A stretch of DNA of 60,594 nt from a virus (IMGVR_UViG_3300042549_005527:1-60594); one strand, 5' to 3'; counted from the stretch's first letter, positions 14,630 to 57,037 are shown. Notes: generated from the letters alone by a model not told the origin. A program made the numbers and translations.

Positions 14630-14658
14630 ATTATAGCACGGTTTTACCATCCTGTCAA
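14630..14658 (-). promoter_or_regulatory. Sigma70 promoter for the gene starting at 14501
   Basis: TTGACA and TATAAT, 17-bp spacer ggatggtaaaaccgtgc. The TGA of the gene at 14655 is inside the -35 box. Confidence 0.92.
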
Positions 14659-16091: not shown

Positions 16092-16250
16092 TTAATCTAC
16101 ATAATAGTCAATCCGCTCTACCAGTGCATCCATTGCAGTTTTTAGTTCCCATTCCACAGTCTCGCACTCTGCAATAGTCATGCCGTCGCAGGTAGCAGTT
16201 GCCAGCATGTCTTCAATCTCACGCAGTTTCTCTAAAATTGTATCACGCAT
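16092..16250 (-). CDS. Small helical protein (52 aa)
   Basis: ATG at 16250 behind AAGGAGCAGAC; MRDTILEKLREIEDMLATAT opens a mostly helical acidic protein ending ERIDYYVD. It lies between a sigma70 promoter and the next gene, which starts 9 bp after its stop. Function unknown. Confidence 0.65.
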   Translation of the reverse strand: MRDTILEKLREIEDMLATATCDGMTIAECETVEWELKTAMDALVERIDYYVD

Positions 16251-16276: not shown

Positions 16277-16305
16277 ATTATAACGCAAAACACGCACAGG
16301 GTCAA
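16277..16305 (-). promoter_or_regulatory. Sigma70 promoter nested in a terminator hairpin
   Basis: TTGACC and TATAAT, 17-bp spacer, driving the gene at 16250. The -35 box and the start of the spacer are the 3' arm of the hairpin at 16293-16321, and the terminator T tract lies in the spacer. Confidence 0.88.
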
Positions 16306-16321
16306 CCAAAGACCCTGTGCG
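16293..16321 (-). terminator. Intrinsic terminator overlapping a promoter
   Basis: An 11-bp perfect stem (arm GACCCTGTGCG), 7-nt loop, then TTTT on the minus strand, just after the gene ending at 16333. Confidence 0.78.
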
Positions 16322-16332
16322 CTGTACAGTTA

Positions 16333-16719
16333 TTAAACGTCCGCACACTCTGCGTAAACAGCGTCCACATGTGCAGGGTCCAAACGTGCAAGCCCTGCAA
16401 TAAATGCAGCCCCTACATCGCAAGATACGTAGCAGTCCTCCTGCATCCCCTGCTCGCTGTAGCTTACATCGTTTGCTTCAGCTTCAGCAAAGCCCAGCGT
16501 TTGCAAGTATGTACGCAGTTCCTGCATAAACTGTTTGTCTGTGTAAATTAAACCCAATGCGTTGACGTCCCAAGTGTCTGTGTTAAAGTACACGCACAGC
16601 TCGCCAAAGTCTCTCTCGTTGTTAATGTACTGCAAGTCCAGCTTCACAATGTCTACTGCTTTAGCAGTGCGGCTCCAGTAGCCACGTCCGTTTGTGTGCA
16701 GTGTTGTGTATGCTTTCAT
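16333..16719 (-). CDS. Conserved phage protein (128 aa)
   Basis: FGELCVYFNTDTWDVNALGLIYTD, then FMQELRTYL and SYSEQGMQEDCYVSCDVG, are recognisable from other large phages; function unknown. ATG behind a GGAGCGATAC site. Single gene with its own promoter and terminator. Confidence 0.72.
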   Translation of the reverse strand: MKAYTTLHTNGRGYWSRTAKAVDIVKLDLQYINNERDFGELCVYFNTDTWDVNALGLIYTDKQFMQELRTYLQTLGFAEAEANDVSYSEQGMQEDCYVSCDVGAAFIAGLARLDPAHVDAVYAECADV

Positions 16720-16748
16720 GTATCGCTCCGTTTGTTTAGTGTAAGTGT

Positions 16749-16777
16749 ATTATAACGCAAAAAACGCACAGTGTCAA
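16749..16777 (-). promoter_or_regulatory. Sigma70 promoter nested in a terminator hairpin
   Basis: TTGACA and TATAAT, 17-bp spacer that contains a six-T run. Drives the gene at 16719. Confidence 0.9.
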
Positions 16778-16792
16778 CTAAAGACCCTGTGC
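16766..16792 (-). terminator. Intrinsic terminator overlapping a promoter
   Basis: A 10-bp stem with one mismatch (GCACAGGGTC with GACACTGTGC), 7-nt loop, then GTTTTTT. It ends the gene at 16802 while supplying the -35 of the next gene. Confidence 0.78.
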
Positions 16793-16801
16793 TGTGTAGT
16801 G

Positions 16802-16945
16802 TTACTCGACAAGCTCTTCGTCAATAGCACATGCAAGCGCATTGTAAGCATTTTGTATAGCAACATGCTCGTCTAGTTCCGCTTCCTCTAAGAGGTCTTG
16901 TATGCGTAACATTGCTACAGCGAGTTTGTGTTGTAATTCTGTCAT
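16802..16945 (-). CDS. Small helical acidic protein (47 aa)
   Basis: ATG at 16945 behind AAAAAGGAGCAACT. MTELQHKLAVAMLRIQDLLE begins a single amphipathic helix; the end is acidic. It is flanked by a promoter and a terminator, which supports expression. Function unknown. Confidence 0.65.
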   Translation of the reverse strand: MTELQHKLAVAMLRIQDLLEEAELDEHVAIQNAYNALACAIDEELVE

Positions 16946-16972
16946 AGTTGCTCCTTTTTAGTGTATGTGTGT

Positions 16973-17001
16973 ATTATAACATGAAACACAGCGTAGAGCA
17001 A
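16973..17001 (-). promoter_or_regulatory. Sigma70-like promoter nested in a hairpin
   Basis: TTGCTC and TATAAT, 17-bp spacer, driving the gene at 16945. The -35 deviates because it falls at the loop/arm border of the hairpin at 16987-17020. Confidence 0.72.
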
Positions 17002-17020
17002 GCAATAGCCCTACGCTGTG
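16987..17020 (-). terminator. Hairpin terminator overlapping a promoter
   Basis: A 10-bp perfect stem (CACAGCGTAG/CTACGCTGTG) with a 14-nt loop, followed by TTT only. It ends the gene at 17026. Confidence 0.65.
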
Positions 17021-17025
17021 CAGGG

Positions 17026-17280
17026 TTATACTAGCAGGAAGTTTTGTGTGCGAAGCTGTGCTTTTGCTTGTGCAAGCACACGCTCAAAACTTGCTTGACG
17101 TGCAGTTGCACTTTCCTCTAGTGTTGCAAAATCGCCACTCTTAAAAACTGCATTGCTGATGCTTACAATAATGTTGCCATTTTTGTCTGTTTTGCTTTTG
17201 TCAAAAGTAACTAACAAACGGACTGTGTTTAGTTTTTTGTTAACTACTACTTTTGCGTATGCTGTGCAGTTTGTTTGCAT
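17026..17280 (-). CDS. Hypothetical protein (84 aa)
   Basis: The ATG at 17280 has GGAG 7 bp upstream, so it is preferred over the ATG at 17292. N-terminal beta-type half (AKVVVNKKLNTVRLLVTF) and helical C-terminal half. No family recognised. Confidence 0.65.
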   Translation of the reverse strand: MQTNCTAYAKVVVNKKLNTVRLLVTFDKSKTDKNGNIIVSISNAVFKSGDFATLEESATARQASFERVLAQAKAQLRTQNFLLV

Positions 17281-17311
17281 TGTGAGCTCCATTGCTGTTT
17301 AGTGTAAGTGT

Positions 17312-17340
17312 ATTATAACGCACTTTCGCCACTTTGTCAA
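17312..17340 (-). promoter_or_regulatory. Sigma70 promoter for the gene starting at 17280
   Basis: TTGACA and TATAAT, 17-bp spacer. Confidence 0.92.
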
Positions 17341-17365
17341 CCCCACACTGCTGGTAGGGTTATTT

Positions 17366-17436
17366 GTTGTGTTTTTACAACACTCAAGGATGGGAGGGGT
17401 TGCTACTACGGGACACTACCCCCGCACCCCTCCCGG
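17366..17436 (-). terminator. GC-rich hairpin plus T-rich hairpin after the YubB-like gene
   Basis: GGGAGGGG/CCCCTCCC arms enclose GGGGGTAGTGTCCC, the same core as after the HTH gene near 12675. A TGTTGT/ACAACA hairpin follows. A likely terminator for the three-gene unit ending at 17444. Confidence 0.5.
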
Positions 17437-17443
17437 AGCAAAC

Positions 17444-18058
17444 TTACTCGTTAGTGGCGCTGAGTCCACCGTCCAAGTCAATATCAATGTTCTCTTCTTC
17501 CTCTTGGTCCGCTTCCCACTCAGCCACTGACTCGCTGATGCCAAACGCCTCGTCCAACTCTACAGGCAACTCTGCCGCAATCTCTTCTGAGTTCATACCA
17601 CCGTACTCGTAGAAGGCATCATCACCGTTGTCCCATACACCAGCAAAGGCCATACCTGGCTCGTAATACATGGCACGGATGCGAAAGCCCTGTTCCATCA
17701 GCAGTTGATAGGCATTGCAAGGAGGGCTCCACGCTGAGTCAAAGCCCAGCATCAAGCCACCTGGGATGTCCTGTGCTGGATTACCGTCTGCACCCACGTC
17801 CCACTTGGTTCCCCATGTGCCCACACAGAAGTCATACCAGTTGGCAAACCCGTAACGCATACGGTTCAACTCGCTTTGTTCTTCCAGCTTCTGTTGCTCC
17901 ACTGGATCGCCCAGTGAGCCTGCTACAATATGCAGATCCTCTGGCACTGGAATGAACTCTTGTAGCAAGGCACCCTTGTTGAATGCTTCACGCACACGCT
18001 CAATCATTGCTGGGTCATCGTGGTAGATCTCTACCGAGTTGTTGCACCAATTAGGCAT
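17444..18058 (-). CDS. YubB-like (Api92/DUF1281) ferredoxin-like-fold protein
   Basis: A 204-residue protein opening MPNWCNNSVEIYHDDPAMIE, the hallmark of the DUF1281/Api92-like family found in phages and plasmids. NWYDFCVGTWGTKWDVG and FDSAWSPPCNAY are also family features. The C-terminal 45 residues are highly acidic. The role is unknown. Last gene of a three-gene unit; its ATG overlaps the upstream TAA. Confidence 0.8.
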   Translation of the reverse strand: MPNWCNNSVEIYHDDPAMIERVREAFNKGALLQEFIPVPEDLHIVAGSLGDPVEQQKLEEQSELNRMRYGFANWYDFCVGTWGTKWDVGADGNPAQDIPGGLMLGFDSAWSPPCNAYQLLMEQGFRIRAMYYEPGMAFAGVWDNGDDAFYEYGGMNSEEIAAELPVELDEAFGISESVAEWEADQEEEENIDIDLDGGLSATNE

Positions 18059-18207
18059 TATTGAAGCTCCTCAGGTAAGTAGGCCAACAGTGTGTCGTTG
18101 GGCAGTTCCAACAACAGTTCGTAGATCGCAGTAAAGTCACCAGCGACCACATCCTTTTGTATTTGATCAATCACTTGATCAATCAAGACTTCGCGTTCAG
18201 TAATCAT
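18058..18207 (-). CDS. Small acidic protein (49 aa)
   Basis: ATG at 18207 overlaps the upstream TGA (ATGA); its own TAA overlaps the next ATG (TAATG). MITEREVLIDQVIDQIQKDV is helical. Double coupling strongly supports translation. Function unknown. Confidence 0.68.
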   Translation of the reverse strand: MITEREVLIDQVIDQIQKDVVAGDFTAIYELLLELPNDTLLAYLPEELQ

Positions 18208-18473
18208 ACAATCTCCTCTTCCCACTCGTAGAATGTAACGCTAGGATCCATCTTCTTCAACTGCCGGGCCGCAGTGACCAACTCCTTGTATCTCCGATTG
18301 ACCTCTGCACGGGGCAGTTCGCCATCGCAGGTCAAGTTCTCAGGACTCAGGGCCGCATCAATCATGTCTGCAACACGCTGACGACCCTTAGCAGTTTTGA
18401 TCTCATACTGCTCGCCTTTGAAGAAACTGTTCCAGTGATTCTTCTGTGCAATGAACTCTTGTAGTGCTTTCAT
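18204..18473 (-). CDS. Hypothetical protein (89 aa)
   Basis: Helical and charged, with EIKTAKGRQRVADMIDAAL in the first half. ATG behind AAAGGAGCAAAG. First gene of the unit that ends with the YubB-like protein. No family recognised. Confidence 0.65.
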   Translation of the reverse strand: MKALQEFIAQKNHWNSFFKGEQYEIKTAKGRQRVADMIDAALSPENLTCDGELPRAEVNRRYKELVTAARQLKKMDPSVTFYEWEEEIV

Positions 18474-18499
18474 CTTTGCTCCTTTGTTGCTAAGTGTGT

Positions 18500-18528
18500 A
18501 TTATAGCAAGAAAACAGGGGATTGTCAA
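18500..18528 (-). promoter_or_regulatory. Sigma70 promoter for the gene starting at 18473
   Basis: TTGACA and TATAAT, 17-bp spacer. Confidence 0.92.
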
Positions 18529-18710
18529 CTACCCGCCGGTCCGTCTCCGGTGTTCAGTGTGACAAACATTATGTCCTAGTACCCCGTCAGCACACTCGTG
18601 TAAACTTTCGTTTACAACTGCCTTCATGCCCTGTAGCAACCTGTCCCCGTCGGAACCTTTCGCTTGCTACAGGCCCTAACGGACTAGGTAACCCTGTTTG
18701 TTTCTTACTA
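18529..18710 (-). ncRNA. Candidate structured small RNA of about 180 nt
   Basis: A perfect promoter (18745-18717) is followed by about 180 bp that fold strongly. There is a 10-bp stem (18630-18639 with 18664-18673, arm CCTGTAGCAA), a 7-bp stem capped by a GAAA tetraloop on the transcript (18599-18616) and a CCTA/TAGG hairpin at the 5' end. The next promoter begins right after it. A 32-codon ORF (ATG 18627, MKAVVNESLHEC) exists without a good ribosome-binding site. Start and end are inferred. Confidence 0.6.
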
Positions 18711-18716
18711 TGCCTA

Positions 18717-18745
18717 ATTATAGCAAGGTTTTACCAAGTTGTCAA
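18717..18745 (-). promoter_or_regulatory. Sigma70 promoter for the structured RNA
   Basis: TTGACA and TATAAT, 17-bp spacer acttggtaaaaccttgc. The TGA of the gene at 18742 is inside the -35 box. Confidence 0.9.
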
Positions 18746-18972
18746 CCAAACGCCTTGAATAACCCTACAATGCCTATGGCTAATGCCACAACGTTGACAG
18801 TGAACTGAGGCATGTTGCGCACTCGCACAGTCCAGATCAAGAACAACACTGTACCAATGAACGCGGCCACAATGTTCCAAGGGTAGGCCTCAGGCCCCAT
18901 GGCATTGAGCACATGCATGGCAATGATGGCCACTGCCCCTGACCACTGTAGTACTTCATTAATATTACGCAT
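18742..18972 (-). CDS. Small membrane protein (76 aa)
   Basis: From the ATG at 18972, behind a GAGAAGG site. Three hydrophobic segments (WSGAVAIIAMHVL, IVAAFIGTVLFLIW, VNVVALAIGIVGLF) indicate a polytopic inner-membrane protein. It overlaps the upstream gene by 8 bp. Function unknown. Confidence 0.68.
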   Translation of the reverse strand: MRNINEVLQWSGAVAIIAMHVLNAMGPEAYPWNIVAAFIGTVLFLIWTVRVRNMPQFTVNVVALAIGIVGLFKAFG

Positions 18973-19363
18973 CAATACCTTCTCGATCAACCATGTCGCT
19001 CAACTCAGCGAATTTTTGTTTGTACTTGTAGACTTCACGTTTGGCCTCATGCAGTGCTTCGCTGATGCAGTCCTCTGCGGTGCCGTCTGTCAATACCTCA
19101 CGGGCATCCTTGTACAGGCACCCGCCCAGGTAGTGAGAGCCCATCTCAAGGCTGTCAACCATTACACGTACACGCAACATGAACCAGTCCAAGTTGCCCG
19201 AGTCAATATCCCGGGCCATCTCTTTGAGATCAAAAAGGGGAACACCGTTCTCGTCCAGGCTGTCATCGAAACAGTCTGACAGACTCAAGTCCTCGTAGCT
19301 CTTGTCTACGATCACAGTAAAGCCATCGCGCTCGTAAGTTGCCAGTTCATCGTAGTATCGCAT
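18965..19363 (-). CDS. Conserved phage protein (132 aa)
   Basis: LFDLKEMARDIDSGNLDWFMLRVRVMV and YLGGCLYKDAREVLTDGTAEDCI are strongly recognisable from other large phages; function unknown. ATG behind AAGGAACACCC. Middle gene of a three-gene unit. Confidence 0.74.
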   Translation of the reverse strand: MRYYDELATYERDGFTVIVDKSYEDLSLSDCFDDSLDENGVPLFDLKEMARDIDSGNLDWFMLRVRVMVDSLEMGSHYLGGCLYKDAREVLTDGTAEDCISEALHEAKREVYKYKQKFAELSDMVDREGIDA

Positions 19364-19376
19364 GGGTGTTCCTTAA

Positions 19377-19634
19377 TTAATAGTGGTGACGTGAGCCAGG
19401 GTCGCAGAAGTCTGCATTGTCCGGAGTCCACTCTTCTGTGGGCTCGTCTTCTTCCTCTTCGTCCTCTGGCTCGTCCTCTACAAGGTCGTTAGCCAGCATC
19501 ATCTCATGCACGGAACTCTCGCTGAGCCAGCTGAGGCACATTTCTGCCACAGCACGTGGGTCCAGCAGGCCCTCGTCCATCATGTCCAGCATCCGTGTAG
19601 TTGCAGGGCGAATCTTTGCGTACGAATTAAACAT
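19377..19634 (-). CDS. Acidic conserved phage protein (85 aa)
   Basis: MFNSYAKIRPATTRMLDMMDEGLLDPRAVAEMC is a recurrent phage motif. The C-terminal half is a run of Glu/Asp, possibly a DNA mimic or a protein-binding tail. First gene of its unit. Confidence 0.72.
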   Translation of the reverse strand: MFNSYAKIRPATTRMLDMMDEGLLDPRAVAEMCLSWLSESSVHEMMLANDLVEDEPEDEEEEDEPTEEWTPDNADFCDPGSRHHY

Positions 19635-19664
19635 ATCAGCTCCTTTGTGTTTCAGTGTAAGTGT

Positions 19665-19693
19665 ATTATAACAGAGAACTCAATCCCTGTCAA
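19665..19693 (-). promoter_or_regulatory. Sigma70 promoter for the gene starting at 19634
   Basis: TTGACA and TATAAT, 17-bp spacer. Confidence 0.92.
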
Positions 19694-19701
19694 CTGTAGG
19701 G

Positions 19702-20058
19702 TTATTCAACACCCACAGTGACGTCCACTTCAATGTCTGTAACTGTGCCAGCGAGATCGTACTTGATCCCAGTAACAGCCGCGCCGTAGTTCACAGCCGC
19801 AAGTCGCTCTTTGAGCATACTCTCGAGATCTCCCAGCATGTCGCCTAGGAAGTCCGCAGTGCTGTCTTTAACGCCACGCAGGGTCTCGTTGATCCCGTTG
19901 CGAGACAAGTCCTCTTGCCCGTCCATGATCATGTCAATGAACGCTTCTGTTTGGCTGATCAAGGCCTGCTCTACAATAGCGTTGATCAGCTCTCTGTTGG
20001 CAAACATAAAGGCGCTGGCCTTAAACGTCTTGTCGCCTGCTTTGAAAATCACTGACAT
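19702..20058 (-). CDS. Hypothetical protein (118 aa)
   Basis: MSVIFKAGDKTFKASAF, a helical middle, and a C-terminal beta segment (GTVTDIEVDVTVGVE). No family recognised. ATG behind AGGAGAAGACC. Single gene. Confidence 0.65.
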   Translation of the reverse strand: MSVIFKAGDKTFKASAFMFANRELINAIVEQALISQTEAFIDMIMDGQEDLSRNGINETLRGVKDSTADFLGDMLGDLESMLKERLAAVNYGAAVTGIKYDLAGTVTDIEVDVTVGVE

Positions 20059-20084
20059 GGTCTTCTCCTGTTGAACAAGTATGT

Positions 20085-20113
20085 ATTATAACACTGAACA
20101 GTGAGCAGGGCAA
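20085..20113 (-). promoter_or_regulatory. Sigma70-like promoter nested in a hairpin
   Basis: TTGCCC and TATAAT, 17-bp spacer. The deviant -35 is forced by the 13-bp stem at 20098-20133. Confidence 0.75.
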
Positions 20114-20133
20114 CCTATAACCCTGCTCACTGT
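20098..20133 (-). terminator. Hairpin terminator overlapping a promoter
   Basis: A 13-bp perfect stem (ACAGTGAGCAGGG/CCCTGCTCACTGT), 10-nt loop, directly after the gene ending at 20138. The weak T content suggests either termination without a long U tract or a processing signal. Confidence 0.68.
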
Positions 20134-20137
20134 AGGG

Positions 20138-20410
20138 TCAAACAACTTCCAGCATGGACGCAGGCACTTTCCACAAGCCCTGCTGAGTACGTACTGTGAC
20201 AAACTTGATGGCGATCTTGTCCACAACACCCTGCATGGTGATGCCTGTTTTGGTGCTGGTAAAACGCACAGCACCACCCAAGCGAACTGCTCGCTTGTTG
20301 GCATCACCCAGACGGGCCCGGGCAAACTTCACAGCGTCAATGATGCTGGACAGTTGCTCGTTGGTGAAGTTGCCTGCCAGGATCTCTGCGTTGACTGATT
20401 GAATACTCAT
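20138..20410 (-). CDS. Conserved small phage protein (90 aa)
   Basis: NEQLSSIIDAVKFARARLG, then GGAVRFTSTKTGITMQGVV and a C-terminal QGLWKVPASMLEVV, suggest an N-terminal helix and an SH3-like beta barrel; a recurrent phage family. ATG behind AAGGAGCAACG. Function unknown. Confidence 0.7.
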   Translation of the reverse strand: MSIQSVNAEILAGNFTNEQLSSIIDAVKFARARLGDANKRAVRLGGAVRFTSTKTGITMQGVVDKIAIKFVTVRTQQGLWKVPASMLEVV

Positions 20411-25118: not shown

Positions 25119-28100
25119 ATGAGTGAAAAAAAATACTACGCTATTGGGTCCACTAGCCCTGAAGGTTGGGAACGTCTACATGCTATCATGACCCAGGATG
25201 GTACACTGGATGACAACATACCGTCTAGAGCTGTAGAATGCACTGACCTCAAAGAACACAGTCCAACCCGGGCAGTGTACCTGTTGGATGATGAAGAAGC
25301 AGCACAGGTTGCCGCGCACCCAGACATACAGTTTATCCAAATAGATCGATCTCAATACCCGGACCTGTACCCACCACGTCCGGACGAACTGCACTGGAGC
25401 GCCAGATACGCAACTCCGGCAAAACATCATAGAGATTTTGGTGTTGGCGGTTATCCTAATCCTACCACTACAGCAGATATCAACAGAGCAGGCTACCAAG
25501 TGCTGCGTGGATCGACATATGAGAATCCTTGGGCTGCTTCCTCTTCTGCTACCATCCTCAGCACTGTAACAAATGCAACAGGCGGCACTGGAATTGATAT
25601 CGATGTTATTGTGGGCGACGAAGGCTGCTGGCTAGGACACGTGGAATTTGCCAACAACACAGGCAATGGGCCTGTGGATTATAAATGGGCCAATGCGGGT
25701 AACTTGCTGTCTAGTACCGGTACCTGTGATGTATTGGATGTGGTGCTGGACGGACCTTACTACATAGATCCTGCTTGGTTTAACGCCAACCCTGGCACTA
25801 GATTGACCACACGCTGGGATGGTTCAGTATTGCCAGTTGAATCAGTGGCTAGAGATTGGTGGGGTAATGCAAGTCAGCGTTCTTCACAGTTTGCTGGTGC
25901 CGGAACAGTTGCAATACCATCGTCATATACTAGAGCAAACACTTCTGGTTCTAATCTTGCAAAGCCCACCGGCAATAGTGATGGTAACCACGGAACCCCT
26001 TGCTCGGCTCAAACCTATGGTCGAACACACGGCTGGGCTTACAATGCCAACAAGTGGGTGATTGATGCCTATGGCGGTTATGGATTCGGTATCAACGTAG
26101 ATCTCTATTTTGATGTGATGAAAATATTTCATCTCAACAAGCCGATAAATCCTGTACACGGTAATAGGAATCCTACTATTTCAAGCAACAGTTGGGGATT
26201 TAGAGCAACACAAGGATCAAGCGGAAATTATTACTTCCGTCAAGGCACAACTGGCGCAGGCGGAGTGGCATATTCTTCAAAACCCAGATTCATGCAGTAT
26301 CTTGGTAGTACAGGTGACGGTGGTAGATTCAAAGGCGAAATGCTGACCAACAATTTAACTGTGGCTGGTGACGAATTGATTGCATCGGGTGTTATATTTG
26401 TTGTGGCTGCTGGCAACAGCAATCAACAGCAAGTGAGTTCTAGCCATCCTAATTTTAACAACTATTGGAGTTCGAGTCCAGCTACTCCGCTGGCCAGTGC
26501 AACTCATGACGAGTTTGGTTCTTTCTGTTACAACACTACCAACCGCAGAGGATTCCCGCAACAGTTGGGCAAGTACACCACAGGAACCACTGTGGTATAT
26601 CCTGCAATCAATATTGGTGCCCTAGATGACAATTATCAACTTGATGGTAAAGAACGCAAGGTAAACTACAGCGACATGGGCAATGAAATTGATGTGTTTA
26701 CTCCAGGGGATGGCACACTCAGTGCAAATATGGGGTCTGGACTTTTAGTACCAAGGCATGATCAGAGAGCAGGCGGATTAACATCTTACGATGGTAGATT
26801 TAGTGGTACCAGTTCCGCATGTCCTACAGCAGCAGGTATGATTGCCACAGCACTAGAATTCAACAGAACTTGGACTTGGCAAGATGTAAGAACTTGGCTA
26901 GGTCTGCTAACAAATCAATCTGCTTCAACCTTTTATCAAGGAGTTGATCCTGCAAGTGCAACTGATGTTGCATGGAGTGATCTGAACAGTTTAATGGGTG
27001 CTGCTCCTCGGGTTCTTTACAACAGTCTTCCTGTTGTTTCTTCAATGACTCTCACAGTGGCTGTGTCGACTGTATCAGTTCCTGCTTATTCAGTATTGAG
27101 TCCTGTTACTCCTGTTGTTGCTTCCAATGGTGTTGCTCCATATGTGTACAGCATTGCTCCAACAGTGCCTGCAGGCATTCTGTACAGCACATCAACTGGA
27201 GCATTATCGGGTAGTCCAACAGTGTTATCATCCACTACTAGTTATACTGTAACTGTGCGCGATGCTGAGTTGACTGTAAAGACTGCACAATTCTCAATAG
27301 CTGTTACTGCAACTGTGTTAACAACTGTGGTAAACGTTCCTAGCACTTCTGTTAGCCCATTGATTGCGTTTACTCCTTTTGTACCAGTTACTGCCACTGG
27401 CGGCAACGGCAATGTGACTTTGGCAGTATCTCCAGCCATGCCCAGTGGTATTGTTTACAACACAACAACAGGCGCAGTATCTGGCACACCAGCTTCTGCG
27501 TTTTCCAATACCTATGCTGTAACTGCCACTGATCAATTGGAACAAAAAAGCACAGGTACATTCAACTTTTCTTCAGTGTCAATTCCACTGTCGTTGACAC
27601 TGAATACTGCTACAAAAACCCTAACGGTATTTCAGTCAGTAACTCCATTTGTACCAGTCAGTGCCACAGGCGGCAACGGAATCAAAACATGGTCAGTGTC
27701 TCCTGCTTTGCCTGCTGGACTATCATTGAACACTGCCACTGGTACTATAATTGGAACACCTACTGCATCTATTGTTGCTACCAGTTATGTTGTGAGAGTA
27801 ACTGATCAGCTTGGACTAACTGATACCAGAACATTTGTGCTATCTGTAGAAGCGCCTGCACTGACAACTACACTGACCATATCGAGAGTATTGTTTTTCC
27901 CCGATATTGCAATTGATCCATTCTCGCCAGTCACAGTCAGCAGCAGTGCTGGCAGTGTAACATTTTCAGTCAGCCCGCCGTTGCCAGATGGATTGACATT
28001 GAATACTGGAACTGGTGTAATTTCAGGTACACCCACAGTGACCGGACGTTCCAATGTGTATACCATATTGGTAGTTGATCAAGTAGGACAACAATCCGTT

Positions 28101-30206
28101 AGATCTTTTAGATTAAAAATCAAATCCAAATTAGATCTAATAGATGCAGACGACCAGAACATTGTGTATGATCGTTTGTTTTCCTTAATGGGTACAACAG
28201 TTACCGGCTACGGTGCAATACCAGCCAGTGAGCCAGTTGATTACGGTCAGATAGTAAGAGATGAAGATTGGGACAAGATGTATGATGACTTGATCAGAGT
28301 CAAGATACACCAGTATGGAGTTGACACAAACAATTTGTTGATTGCAGATCCCGGCAACATAGTATTGGACGGAGTTCAAGATAGAATCTATACATGGTCG
28401 CAACTGCACCTGGCCACATCTTCTACAGTTCATCCTTCTCAATTGTCCAGCATGACAGTGAACACCAACGAAATGAGTCCACCTGAATGGATTTCTGAAT
28501 ACGAGGATCCTGATACCTGGACCAATATAACCGGTAATGGTTATATCGCAGCAGCAGGTTTTACCTGGTTTAGACCTGCACAATTGAATTATTTTTTCAA
28601 TCTTGGCGGATCTATAACACCGCAAATTTCTTTGGGACAAGGAACAATAAGAGATTATATTGCTTGGGATCCTTTGGTACAAGCTGCCAATCAATTGAAA
28701 TTTTCCAAGACACAGTTTTATTCAGCACTTAACAGTTTGGATAAGTCCTTTGTGCAGGTTGTGAGAGGGCCTGGCAATATTGGTTCTGTTACCACTACCA
28801 GCACATATTCGGCCAATGCTATCATTATCAAGTATCAGATTGTGGACAGTAGAATACTTGCCAGTATACAATTTGTTGCAAGTTTTAGTGATAAAAAGAA
28901 GAAGAAGAACAAAAAGAAAAAGGGCGGAAACAACATTGTAGTTAGACTACAGGTCAATACCAACTTTTTGACAAGATACAGCAACAACCTCTCCGGTGGC
29001 ATTGCTGCACCTGTTCCTCAAACTCAATTGATCAACGACTGTCTGAGTATCGACACTCGTCCAGTTGATCCGTTTGTGTTTGCAACTGGATCTTCCAACG
29101 GCCCACGCAACATTGTTCTACGCAACAACTCCACACAAACTTGTAATATTTCCAATGTGTTTTTAACAGGTTATACCACTGGTACTGTGAGTCCAACGGT
29201 GTTGACAATACCTCCAAACAGTTCTGGTTCTATTAATCTGTCCTACAGCGGCAACACTGCTGGACTGTTTAAAGGATTTGTCAACATTGAATCCAACGTG
29301 AACAATTTTACCATATTCACACAGGTTGAAGTTGGATCCATAACACCTCCAGCATTGAATTTAACAACAGGCACGCTTGATATTGTATCTCAGGATTTTG
29401 TTGTAGACATGGTGGGCGGGGCATATGAAAAGTTTGATGCAGAACTATCACGATTGGGCAACGGATTTGGATTTACTGAACATGTAGAAACTGTGGCAGC
29501 AGAAACAATGGATCGATTCAATGTGACATTTGATCCTCGAGATCTTGCAACTGGAACATATGTTACCACTGCAACAGTAACAGTGTATCCGTTGGACAAC
29601 AACAGTGAGGTTGCTGTGTTCAAAGTACCAGTCAACATCAATCTAAACATTCGTCGTTACAACATTGCTAGATGGTCCAGCGCACTGGGTCCGCAGACCA
29701 GCGCACTGGGTTTGAGTTTTGATTACATAGATGGTAAAAGATATCTAACAGTGGGCATAGGTACCAATAGTCCTGTGCTGTCACAACTAGGTACCACTAG
29801 CACATTCGGAACTTGGTCAGAAGTTTCTAGAATGATCATTGAAGATCGTATGGAAACATTGCACTCTGCAGAATATTTGATCAAAAGTGATTCCAATTAT
29901 GGTTCCAATTTTGGAATAGGTGCTGCATTTGGATCTATTGTCACTGTGAAAAATCAAAAGTATGGCAATATAGAAATACTAATGAACCCTGCAAGATATC
30001 CCGGTGATGATGTTGCAACAACAAACATAGTAAAATTCTTGTCCAGTGCATTCTACTATTTTGATCCAACAGTCAATCGAATAACACAATTGGAAACAGC
30101 AACTCAATTGTCCAATGGCGGGTACACTAGATATTTCAACACATTTGACAAGGATGGATCCGTTGTGACCAGCTTGGTTGTGCCCAACGGTGGGCTGATC
30201 AACTGA
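25119..30206 (+). CDS. Giant subtilase-domain protein with Ig-like repeats, probably virion-associated
   Basis: A 1695-residue protein. Residues 160-580 are an S8 subtilisin-like domain with the full catalytic set: Asp167 in VIVGDEG, His291 in DGNHGTPC, oxyanion Asn433 in VVAAGNSN, and Ser565 in FSGTSSACPTAAG. No signal peptide is visible. Residues about 645-1020 hold four putative-Ig (He_PIG) repeats of the form GLSLNTATGTIIGTP. A Lys-rich tract (about 1258-1268) precedes several beta-rich domains, with CSNS-like Asn/Thr-rich segments up to the C-terminus. This architecture suggests a tail or fibre-linked protease that could trim host surface proteins or process virion proteins. It opens the long plus-strand block. 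Confidence 0.82.
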   Translation: MSEKKYYAIGSTSPEGWERLHAIMTQDGTLDDNIPSRAVECTDLKEHSPTRAVYLLDDEEAAQVAAHPDIQFIQIDRSQYPDLYPPRPDELHWSARYATPAKHHRDFGVGGYPNPTTTADINRAGYQVLRGSTYENPWAASSSATILSTVTNATGGTGIDIDVIVGDEGCWLGHVEFANNTGNGPVDYKWANAGNLLSSTGTCDVLDVVLDGPYYIDPAWFNANPGTRLTTRWDGSVLPVESVARDWWGNASQRSSQFAGAGTVAIPSSYTRANTSGSNLAKPTGNSDGNHGTPCSAQTYGRTHGWAYNANKWVIDAYGGYGFGINVDLYFDVMKIFHLNKPINPVHGNRNPTISSNSWGFRATQGSSGNYYFRQGTTGAGGVAYSSKPRFMQYLGSTGDGGRFKGEMLTNNLTVAGDELIASGVIFVVAAGNSNQQQVSSSHPNFNNYWSSSPATPLASATHDEFGSFCYNTTNRRGFPQQLGKYTTGTTVVYPAINIGALDDNYQLDGKERKVNYSDMGNEIDVFTPGDGTLSANMGSGLLVPRHDQRAGGLTSYDGRFSGTSSACPTAAGMIATALEFNRTWTWQDVRTWLGLLTNQSASTFYQGVDPASATDVAWSDLNSLMGAAPRVLYNSLPVVSSMTLTVAVSTVSVPAYSVLSPVTPVVASNGVAPYVYSIAPTVPAGILYSTSTGALSGSPTVLSSTTSYTVTVRDAELTVKTAQFSIAVTATVLTTVVNVPSTSVSPLIAFTPFVPVTATGGNGNVTLAVSPAMPSGIVYNTTTGAVSGTPASAFSNTYAVTATDQLEQKSTGTFNFSSVSIPLSLTLNTATKTLTVFQSVTPFVPVSATGGNGIKTWSVSPALPAGLSLNTATGTIIGTPTASIVATSYVVRVTDQLGLTDTRTFVLSVEAPALTTTLTISRVLFFPDIAIDPFSPVTVSSSAGSVTFSVSPPLPDGLTLNTGTGVISGTPTVTGRSNVYTILVVDQVGQQSVRSFRLKIKSKLDLIDADDQNIVYDRLFSLMGTTVTGYGAIPASEPVDYGQIVRDEDWDKMYDDLIRVKIHQYGVDTNNLLIADPGNIVLDGVQDRIYTWSQLHLATSSTVHPSQLSSMTVNTNEMSPPEWISEYEDPDTWTNITGNGYIAAAGFTWFRPAQLNYFFNLGGSITPQISLGQGTIRDYIAWDPLVQAANQLKFSKTQFYSALNSLDKSFVQVVRGPGNIGSVTTTSTYSANAIIIKYQIVDSRILASIQFVASFSDKKKKKNKKKKGGNNIVVRLQVNTNFLTRYSNNLSGGIAAPVPQTQLINDCLSIDTRPVDPFVFATGSSNGPRNIVLRNNSTQTCNISNVFLTGYTTGTVSPTVLTIPPNSSGSINLSYSGNTAGLFKGFVNIESNVNNFTIFTQVEVGSITPPALNLTTGTLDIVSQDFVVDMVGGAYEKFDAELSRLGNGFGFTEHVETVAAETMDRFNVTFDPRDLATGTYVTTATVTVYPLDNNSEVAVFKVPVNINLNIRRYNIARWSSALGPQTSALGLSFDYIDGKRYLTVGIGTNSPVLSQLGTTSTFGTWSEVSRMIIEDRMETLHSAEYLIKSDSNYGSNFGIGAAFGSIVTVKNQKYGNIEILMNPARYPGDDVATTNIVKFLSSAFYYFDPTVNRITQLETATQLSNGGYTRYFNTFDKDGSVVTSLVVPNGGLIN

Positions 30207-55758: not shown

Positions 55759-56010
55759 ATGAAAGTTATAGAACTGTTAGCAGAAAAGAAACTTAAAGCG
55801 CCCACATCGAGTGAATGCTCTGTGGGCCATTCTCGTTTGAGCAATGTACGGTACAGCCAGTGTGTCAGCCTTGGCATGTTAAAACACGACAGTAGTCATA
55901 CCGCAGGCACTGGTACCCAGGGCAAAAAAGGCACTGGAGTAAAACTACGTGGCAAGAAAATGAAAAGTGAAATACACGGCGGGCCTGTCAAAGACTATGA
56001 CGGCAAGTGA
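55759..56010 (+). CDS. Conserved basic phage protein (83 aa)
   Basis: SRLSNVRYSQCVSLGMLKHDSSHTAGTG, then a Gly/Lys-rich GKKGTGVKLRGKKMKSE, is recurrent in marine T4-like phages; function unknown. TGATG overlap with the IscA gene couples it to the Fe-S cassette. Confidence 0.68.
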   Translation: MKVIELLAEKKLKAPTSSECSVGHSRLSNVRYSQCVSLGMLKHDSSHTAGTGTQGKKGTGVKLRGKKMKSEIHGGPVKDYDGK

Positions 56011-56339
56011 TGATTACTTTTACCGAAATAGCACACGCCAGAATAAAAAAACAACTACTCAGTAGGGGACATGGCATAGGAATCAAAGTGGGTGTAAAAA
56101 CCACAGGATGCAGTGGCCTAGCGTATGTGTTGGAATATGTTGACAAACTTGTGGATGAACATGCATTGTACCACATCACAGGAACATCTGATTTTGCTGT
56201 TGTGATAGACAAAAAACACGAACCTTACCTAACAGGAATGATTGTTGATTATGTTCGTAACGGACTAAACGAAGGGTTTGAGTTTCAAAATCCCAACGAA
56301 CGCGATCGTTGTGGATGTGGTGAAAGTTTTAGGATATAA
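56010..56339 (+). CDS. iscA: A-type iron-sulfur carrier (IscA-like)
   Basis: A 109-residue HesB/IscA protein. MITFTEIAHARIKKQL, TTGCSGLAYVLEYV with Cys34, and the C-terminal CGCGESF with Cys101 and Cys103 give the three cluster ligands. It would receive [4Fe-4S] or [2Fe-2S] clusters from IscU and deliver them to targets. The overlap with the upstream stop and the 1-bp gap to IscU indicate co-translation. Confidence 0.9.
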   Translation: MITFTEIAHARIKKQLLSRGHGIGIKVGVKTTGCSGLAYVLEYVDKLVDEHALYHITGTSDFAVVIDKKHEPYLTGMIVDYVRNGLNEGFEFQNPNERDRCGCGESFRI

Positions 56340-56340
56340 C

Positions 56341-56721
56341 ATGGCATATTCACAAAAAGTAATTGATCATTATGAGAATCCACGCAACGTGGGCAAATTT
56401 GAAATTGACGACAGCGTGGGCACCGGAATGGTAGGTGCGCCCGCTTGCGGCGACGTTATGAAGTTGCAAATCAAAGTAGAAGACGGAGTGATTATAGATG
56501 CCAAATTCAAAACATACGGATGCGGATCAGCCATTGCAAGCTCAAGCCTTGTTACAGAATGGGTCAAGGGAAAAACACTTGACCAAGCGGGAAAGATTAC
56601 TAATTCAACAATTGCTGAGGAACTTGCCCTACCACCGGTTAAAATACATTGTAGCATACTTGCAGAAGATGCTATCAAAGCCGCAGTAGAAGATTATAGG
56701 AAAAAACATGGATCAAGTTAA
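56341..56721 (+). CDS. iscU: Iron-sulfur scaffold protein IscU
   Basis: A 126-residue scaffold. [14 protein letters not shown] opens the family; the cluster ligands are Cys36 ([11 protein letters not shown], with Asp38), Cys61 ([12 protein letters not shown]) and Cys104 ([13 protein letters not shown], with His103). All key residues are kept and the length matches bacterial IscU. No IscS, HscA/HscB or ferredoxin gene is nearby, so host sulfur donor and chaperones would be used. It overlaps the next gene by 14 bp. Confidence 0.94.
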
Positions 56722-57037
56722 TATCACAGAACCTGCAATGTTACGCATAGCAGATCTACTAGCAGAAGAAAACAATCCAAAATTAAAATTGCGTACTTTC
56801 GTACAAGGTGGCGGCTGTTCGGGATTCCAGTATGGATTTACATTTGATGAACAACAAAACGAAGATGATTTTGTTGTTGAACGACCCGGAATGACTTTGT
56901 TGGTAGATGCAATCAGTATGCAATACTTGCAAGGATCCACTGTAGACTACAAGGACGACTTGTCTGGCAGCAGTTTTACTATCAAAAATCCCAATGCAGA
57001 ATCCACATGCGGTTGCGGCAGCAGTTTTTCCGTTTAA
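56708..57037 (+). CDS. A-type iron-sulfur carrier (ErpA-like)
   Basis: A 109-residue A-type carrier distinct from the gene at 56010. [34 protein letters not shown] with Cys37, and [11 protein letters not shown] with Cys101 and Cys103. The [10 protein letters not shown] form is closer to ErpA than to IscA. ErpA-type carriers usually pass [4Fe-4S] clusters to late targets such as radical SAM enzymes. Confidence 0.9.

Follow-up and report, generated by a model that had tools for sequence, protein, structure and literature searches.

In the 60,594-base viral sequence IMGVR_UViG_3300042549_005527, four junctions between small minus-strand genes carry an RNA hairpin and a promoter that share the same bases. 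The whole of this sequence, one entire IMG/VR virus record, is referred to here as the window. At each junction, the hairpin lies directly behind the stop codon of the preceding open reading frame (ORF) and overlaps the -35 box of the promoter that follows. We favor the interpretation, with a probability of about 0.75, that each junction overlays two signals, an intrinsic terminator serving the gene before it and a host-sigma70 promoter, probably an early one, for the gene behind it. Such an arrangement would be a natural overlap of two regulatory codes in the same bases, with the -35 read as DNA and the hairpin read as RNA. The analysis computed the anatomy of the elements, RNA-level constraint, the coupling of T tract and stem, recurrence in relatives, and gene exchange behind the cassettes.

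All four elements combine a 17-bp spacer with a perfect TATAAT -10 box. In element 1, a 12-bp stem with a loop of 7 nucleotides (nt) spans 16322-16292, holds GACC of the -35 in its 3' arm, and is followed by GTTTTG; the promoter (16277..16305) consists of TTGACC at 16305-16300, a spacer containing TTTT at 16290-16287, and TATAAT at 16282-16277. The element 2 hairpin (16792-16766) has 6 bp, a G.A mismatch, and a further 3 bp around a 7-nt loop. It is followed by GTTTTTTG, with a T tract of six at 16764-16759 within GTTTTTT, and its promoter (16749..16777) has TTGACA at 16777-16772 and TATAAT at 16754-16749. Elements 3 and 4 each possess a 14-bp stem and an 8-nt loop. The former (17021-16986) carries GCTC of the -35 in its 3' arm, continues into TTC, a weak T tract, and belongs to a promoter at 16973..17001 with TTGCTC at 17001-16996. 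The latter (20133-20098) carries GCCC of the -35 in its 3' arm, continues into TCAGTG, and belongs to a promoter at 20085..20113 with TTGCCC at 20113-20108. A preliminary description of this DNA had reported four hairpin/-35 composites; all are present, on the minus strand, which it left unstated. Its placement of the T tract in the spacer holds for elements 1 and 2 (TTTT and TTTTTT), is weakly matched by element 3, and fails for element 4.

The predicted RNA folds of elements 1 to 4 reach -24.3, -13.5, -26.0, and -27.3 kcal/mol, with z scores of -4.8, -3.0, -6.6, and -7.1, and no shuffled sequence was equally stable. A simple terminator scan picks up elements 1 and 3 only, missing element 2 because of its stem mismatch and element 4 because it has no T tract. 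An attenuator was also considered for elements 3 and 4, in which a CCCT/AGGG hairpin would compete with the long hairpin. Both structures can be drawn, but the long one dominates the predicted fold, and nothing points to a switch.

Recurrence was assessed in a promoter set comprising every TTG-N3-N17-TATAAT from 273 related viral loci and the window, reduced to 1,252 non-redundant members differing by more than 20%. A 3' arm that starts in the -35 and extends into the spacer (score 24 or more) occurs in 45 of the 1,252, against a mean of 1.2 expected when upstream halves were exchanged among promoters (200 permutations; highest count 5). A second control, with shuffled flanks and 997 promoters, found 58 hairpins with a 3' arm ending in the spacer against 1.8, and 39 lying entirely upstream against 2.8. 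Pairing could in principle arise by chance or from base composition near G+T-rich -35 regions, and the dinucleotide just before the -35 is indeed mostly GG, which raises background pairing. Both controls preserve composition, however, and the excesses of 45 over 1.2 and 58 over 1.8 refute this explanation, leaving it a negligible likelihood. The exact cassette pattern is found in 96 stretches of viral contigs and is absent from the bacterial and archaeal genomes searched.

Judged from sequence comparisons, formation of the putative stems at the RNA level is well supported, and the earlier proposal that they act in RNA agrees with their covariation, with a preference for G.T over A.C mismatches, and with T tracts on the 3' side that have no A-tract counterpart on the 5' side. 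Among 14 relatives in the register of element 1, 95.5% of cells are paired. These same rows, pre-selected for at least 4 of 6 inner pairs, contain 28 double-changed cells against 8.7 in shuffled data (reached in 0 of 500 shuffles), and the two outermost pairs, which lie outside the selection, account for 15 of the 28. Under Watson-Crick-only scoring, the stem mismatches of all classes of hairpin comprise 93 G.T and 17 A.C (column expectations 0.85 to 2.8). A DNA palindrome would be hurt equally by both, and the structure therefore works as sense-strand RNA.

The same asymmetry bears on whether the promoter is controlled through its inverted repeats at the DNA level, as operators or cruciforms with a repressor site over the -35. 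Overlap with the -35 is the usual location for a repressor, and the spacer repeats of class E are perfect. Nevertheless, the 93:17 ratio is contrary to what equally disruptive mismatches in a DNA palindrome would give, and the stems covary and are not the same at different promoters of a single genome, which leaves no operator in common. Given the mismatch asymmetry and the stem diversity, we reject this account and consider it very improbable.

T tracts follow the stems. In the 45 fused promoters, the 8 nt after the stem contain 4.02 T on average against 2.79 at matched positions (p 6e-10), and TTTT occurs in the spacer of 21/45 fused promoters against 183/1173 others (p 2e-6). TTTT lies within 13 nt of the stem in 32% of upstream hairpins (6.4% at matched positions), in 25% of hairpins through the -35 (6.7%), and in 32% of those with the -35 in the 5' arm (2.6%). 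An A-tract excess looked for on the 5' side of the stems gave none matching the 3' T tracts. Promoters were also selected without regard to the arms, by loop border and spacer T run. Their paired fraction was 0.733 against 0.619 in shuffled sequences (maximum 0.692 in 1000), an excess less marked than that from covariation yet still clear, with a small excess, 0.562 against 0.519, in the set lacking a T run.

These patterns help to weigh the possibility that the hairpins mainly cap the 3' ends of mRNA or serve as RNase processing sites, stabilizing the upstream message and ending or protecting transcripts while being inefficient as intrinsic terminators. The RNA-level signatures described above fit such a role equally well, and element 4 and many hairpins of classes A2, C, and E have no T tract. 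A pure stabilizer does not need one, however, and in classes A, B, and D the T tracts track the shifting end of the stem (p 9e-15, 3e-5, and 8e-11, respectively). We consider a predominantly stabilizing role unlikely, though worth keeping in view.

The -35 bases are under a double constraint, being read both as DNA and as RNA. In the element 1 register, position 6 of the -35 stands opposite a G; an A or G is kept there, mismatched, in 13/15 relatives, and a C is found in 2. In the other register, that of elements 3 and 4, the -35 gives way (TTGCTC and TTGCCC). Element 2 retains a perfect TTGACA at the cost of one stem mismatch. At the element 3 junction, one related locus (L113) pairs TAGGG with TTGCCCTA and two others (L010 and L129) pair TAGTG with TTGACACTA, and a consensus -35 is therefore matched by compensation in the 5' arm. 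At the element 4 junction, L210 has kept the stem in a slid position that now leaves TTGACA in the loop; in L241 and L134 the hairpin lies within the spacer instead. Fused elements carry TTGACA somewhat less often (23/45) than other promoters do (804/1173; p 0.02). The preliminary description held that the -35 is weakened where the stem demands it. This applies to three of the four elements, whose -35 boxes are non-consensus, and breaks down at element 2 and in the element 1-register relatives that keep a mismatched A or G. The relatives thus reveal several solutions to the conflict: a stem mismatch, a compensated -35 change, and a slid register.

Under the proposed mechanism, a polymerase arriving from the upstream gene would copy the 5' arm just past the stop codon and then the loop, before entering the 3' arm, which opens with the -35 DNA. 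Once transcribed, the hairpin would fold and, where the spacer holds a T tract, the polymerase would be released inside the next promoter, after its -35 and ahead of its -10. This predicted stop, in the spacer T tract, precedes the next start by about 20 nt, at odds with the earlier suggestion that one transcript ends exactly where the next begins. A polymerase initiating at the next promoter would start beyond the 5' arm. The new RNA, having no 5' arm, would therefore form no hairpin, and its transcript would not be terminated. We infer that actual termination takes place at the elements and that the promoters act early. Neighboring genes may in this way be insulated in dose, which would be possible at only 4 of the 32 junctions of the promoter array that contains the elements.

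Several observations weigh against a terminator superimposed on a promoter. A strong hairpin overlapping the -35 is present at 4/32 array promoters, the other 28 being without one, and about 4% of the relatives' promoters bear a strong hairpin of the -35-sharing class. The T tract after the stem is good in elements 1 and 2, poor in element 3, and missing from element 4, and in the stricter class-B set just 13/51 hairpins (25%) have TTTT within 13 nt. In addition, the related loci are non-independent samples, and the pre-selection of the 14 covariation rows favors structure.

A further proposal is that host RNA polymerase, once released in the T tract of the spacer, remains DNA-bound together with sigma and restarts at the next promoter. 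This relay is suggested by work in vitro in which terminated E. coli RNA polymerase recycles to a nearby promoter without leaving the DNA (PMC6978380, PMC11347151). The window resembles that setting in having a termination site close to a sense promoter. It differs in that the terminator and promoter were separate there, whereas the window elements use the same bases. If true, the ending of one gene would feed the start of the next along the array, going beyond insulation; we regard the relay as speculative and quite unlikely. The cassettes offer compact parts and a natural test bed for whether polymerase leaving a terminator can recycle into a promoter that overlaps it.

Fusions in the relatives span a range of positions that includes three forms. 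In the first, the hairpin lies just upstream and its T tract enters the -35 (AGGGTCTTTGG-TTGACA). In the second, as in the window, the hairpin runs through the -35 and the T tract lies in the spacer. In the third, the 3' arm reaches the -10 and the T tract lies near +1, as in L142 (TTAGCACACACAG-TTGACA-ATTTGGACTGTGTGTGC-TATAAT-AAGTTTTT). In all three, RNA born at the promoter is without the 5' arm and should escape termination. Class D (L142, L049, L141, L271, L205, and others) has long inverted repeats around the -35, with the start or the whole of the -10 in the 3' arm. There, TTTTT at about +1 amounts to a terminator over the whole promoter, and some members, such as L271, are promoter-like on both strands.

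Gene content behind the cassettes is variable. Behind orthologues of the ORF that precedes element 4, the downstream ORF belongs to one of 20 families (105 called), and a promoter lies within 160 nt in 113 of 189 cases. The repeats might accordingly be kept mainly for gene swapping through short homologous junctions, with terminator strength of minor importance. In favor of this, many of the 20 families stand behind a cassette, as in the shuffling known from PeSLs (discussed below). Stems that vary from junction to junction and covary are, however, no help to homologous exchange and indicate that structure is under selection. An origin chiefly in recombination is very unlikely in our estimation, and gene exchange may be a by-product.

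The closest known systems are the PeSLs (promoter-early stem-loops) reportedly described by Arbiol et al. in 2010 (GBE 2:140) and Comeau et al. in 2014 (GBE 6:1611, "Composite conserved promoter-terminator motifs") in the T4-like myoviruses RB49, Phi1, nt-1, and PST. The definition used here is drawn from papers that cite this work. Those papers describe PeSLs, in RB49 and other T4-like phages, as composite promoter-terminator cassettes flanking exchanged genes (PMC4503421, PMC3950731, PMC5348500). Like PeSLs, the window elements join a near-consensus sigma70 promoter to a stem-loop, lie between small genes of a plastic region, and have exchanged genes behind them. Unlike them, the window class has the -35 in the 3' arm and the T tract in the spacer. 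RB49 (L187) has hairpins just before the -35 (45322, 34481) or within the spacer (43031, 33335, 25338). None of the RB49 and Phi1 promoters listed has its -35 in the 3' arm, and at RB49 18532 the -35 is in the 5' arm. Near-perfect GC-rich hairpins were also seen to fill the spacer in RB49, at L187 positions 43031, 33335, and 25338 and at 115033, 117409, 121736, and 134549 of the RB49 record. On this reading, the window cassettes would work like PeSLs in another register.

Common descent with the PeSLs of Straboviridae is unsupported: a blastn search of the cassette against 50,697 phage records found no match in isolated phages, and the window helicase is nearest to those of PA5oct and Atu_ph07. 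The PA5oct promoters listed include no cassette of the window form. A likeness also exists to the haloarchaeal virus HGTV-1, in which a promoter-like element and an inverted repeat precede many small ORFs, a conserved TATA-box/inverted-repeat motif that its authors likened to PeSLs (reviewed in PMC3950731). The HGTV-1 promoter is archaeal, unlike that of the window, and the portion of the paper that describes the motif mentions neither a shared -35 nor T-tract coupling. Elements 1 and 2 resemble intrinsic (Rho-independent) terminators in having a GC-rich stem followed by a T tract. They depart from the usual form in that part of the stem doubles as a -35 box, and element 4 departs further in having no T tract.

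The window is probably a fragment, and related viral contigs reach 383 kb. It encodes T4-type replication genes (primase, gp41/DnaB-like helicase, and ligase), with the helicase sharing 52-54% identity with its nearest counterparts, those of PA5oct and Atu_ph07, both jumbo phages. Megablast matches of the window to Acinetobacter phages are to tRNA-Met only. The phage may be of freshwater origin; the elements would then add an uncultured lineage of freshwater jumbo phages to the T4-like phages as carriers of composite promoter-terminator cassettes.

The four elements belong to an array that runs from 22040 to 8401 through a region of small ORFs and comprises about 32 near-consensus sigma70 promoters (TTGACA-17-TATAAT). 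All are on the minus strand, at a density of about one promoter per small ORF or short ORF run. Between 10001 and 30000 there are 44 promoter-like sites against 25 expected, and every perfect one is on the minus strand. Element 3 ends an ORF of 88 amino acids (aa; 17026..17292) and starts one of 47 aa (16802..16945), which is ended by element 2. Element 2 in turn starts a 128-aa ORF (16333..16719) ended by element 1, and element 1 starts a 52-aa ORF (16092..16250). Element 4 separates a 90-aa ORF (20138..20410) that it ends from a 118-aa ORF (19702..20058) that it starts. All six ORFs are on the minus strand.

Ordinary promoters have spacer features of their own. GGTAAAACC recurs in their 17-bp spacers, in the window near 14658, 14951, 18745, 21147, 21517, and 24258 and in many other loci, and the spacer motif GGTAAAA was counted 113 times among 982 promoters of the lineage. 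The excess of repeats internal to the spacer of ordinary promoters is small and mixed.

Elsewhere in the window, the first 790 residues of a 1,695-aa plus-strand ORF at 25119-30206 match phrog_9158, a family of unknown function. This ORF is followed at 30255-54740 by a long series of big plus-strand ORFs of mixed types, without the promoter array, several of which, by eye, resemble genes for radical-SAM proteins or sugar-nucleotide epimerases. Small plus-strand ORFs at 56007-57037 carry motifs that, again by eye, are like those of iron-sulphur assembly.

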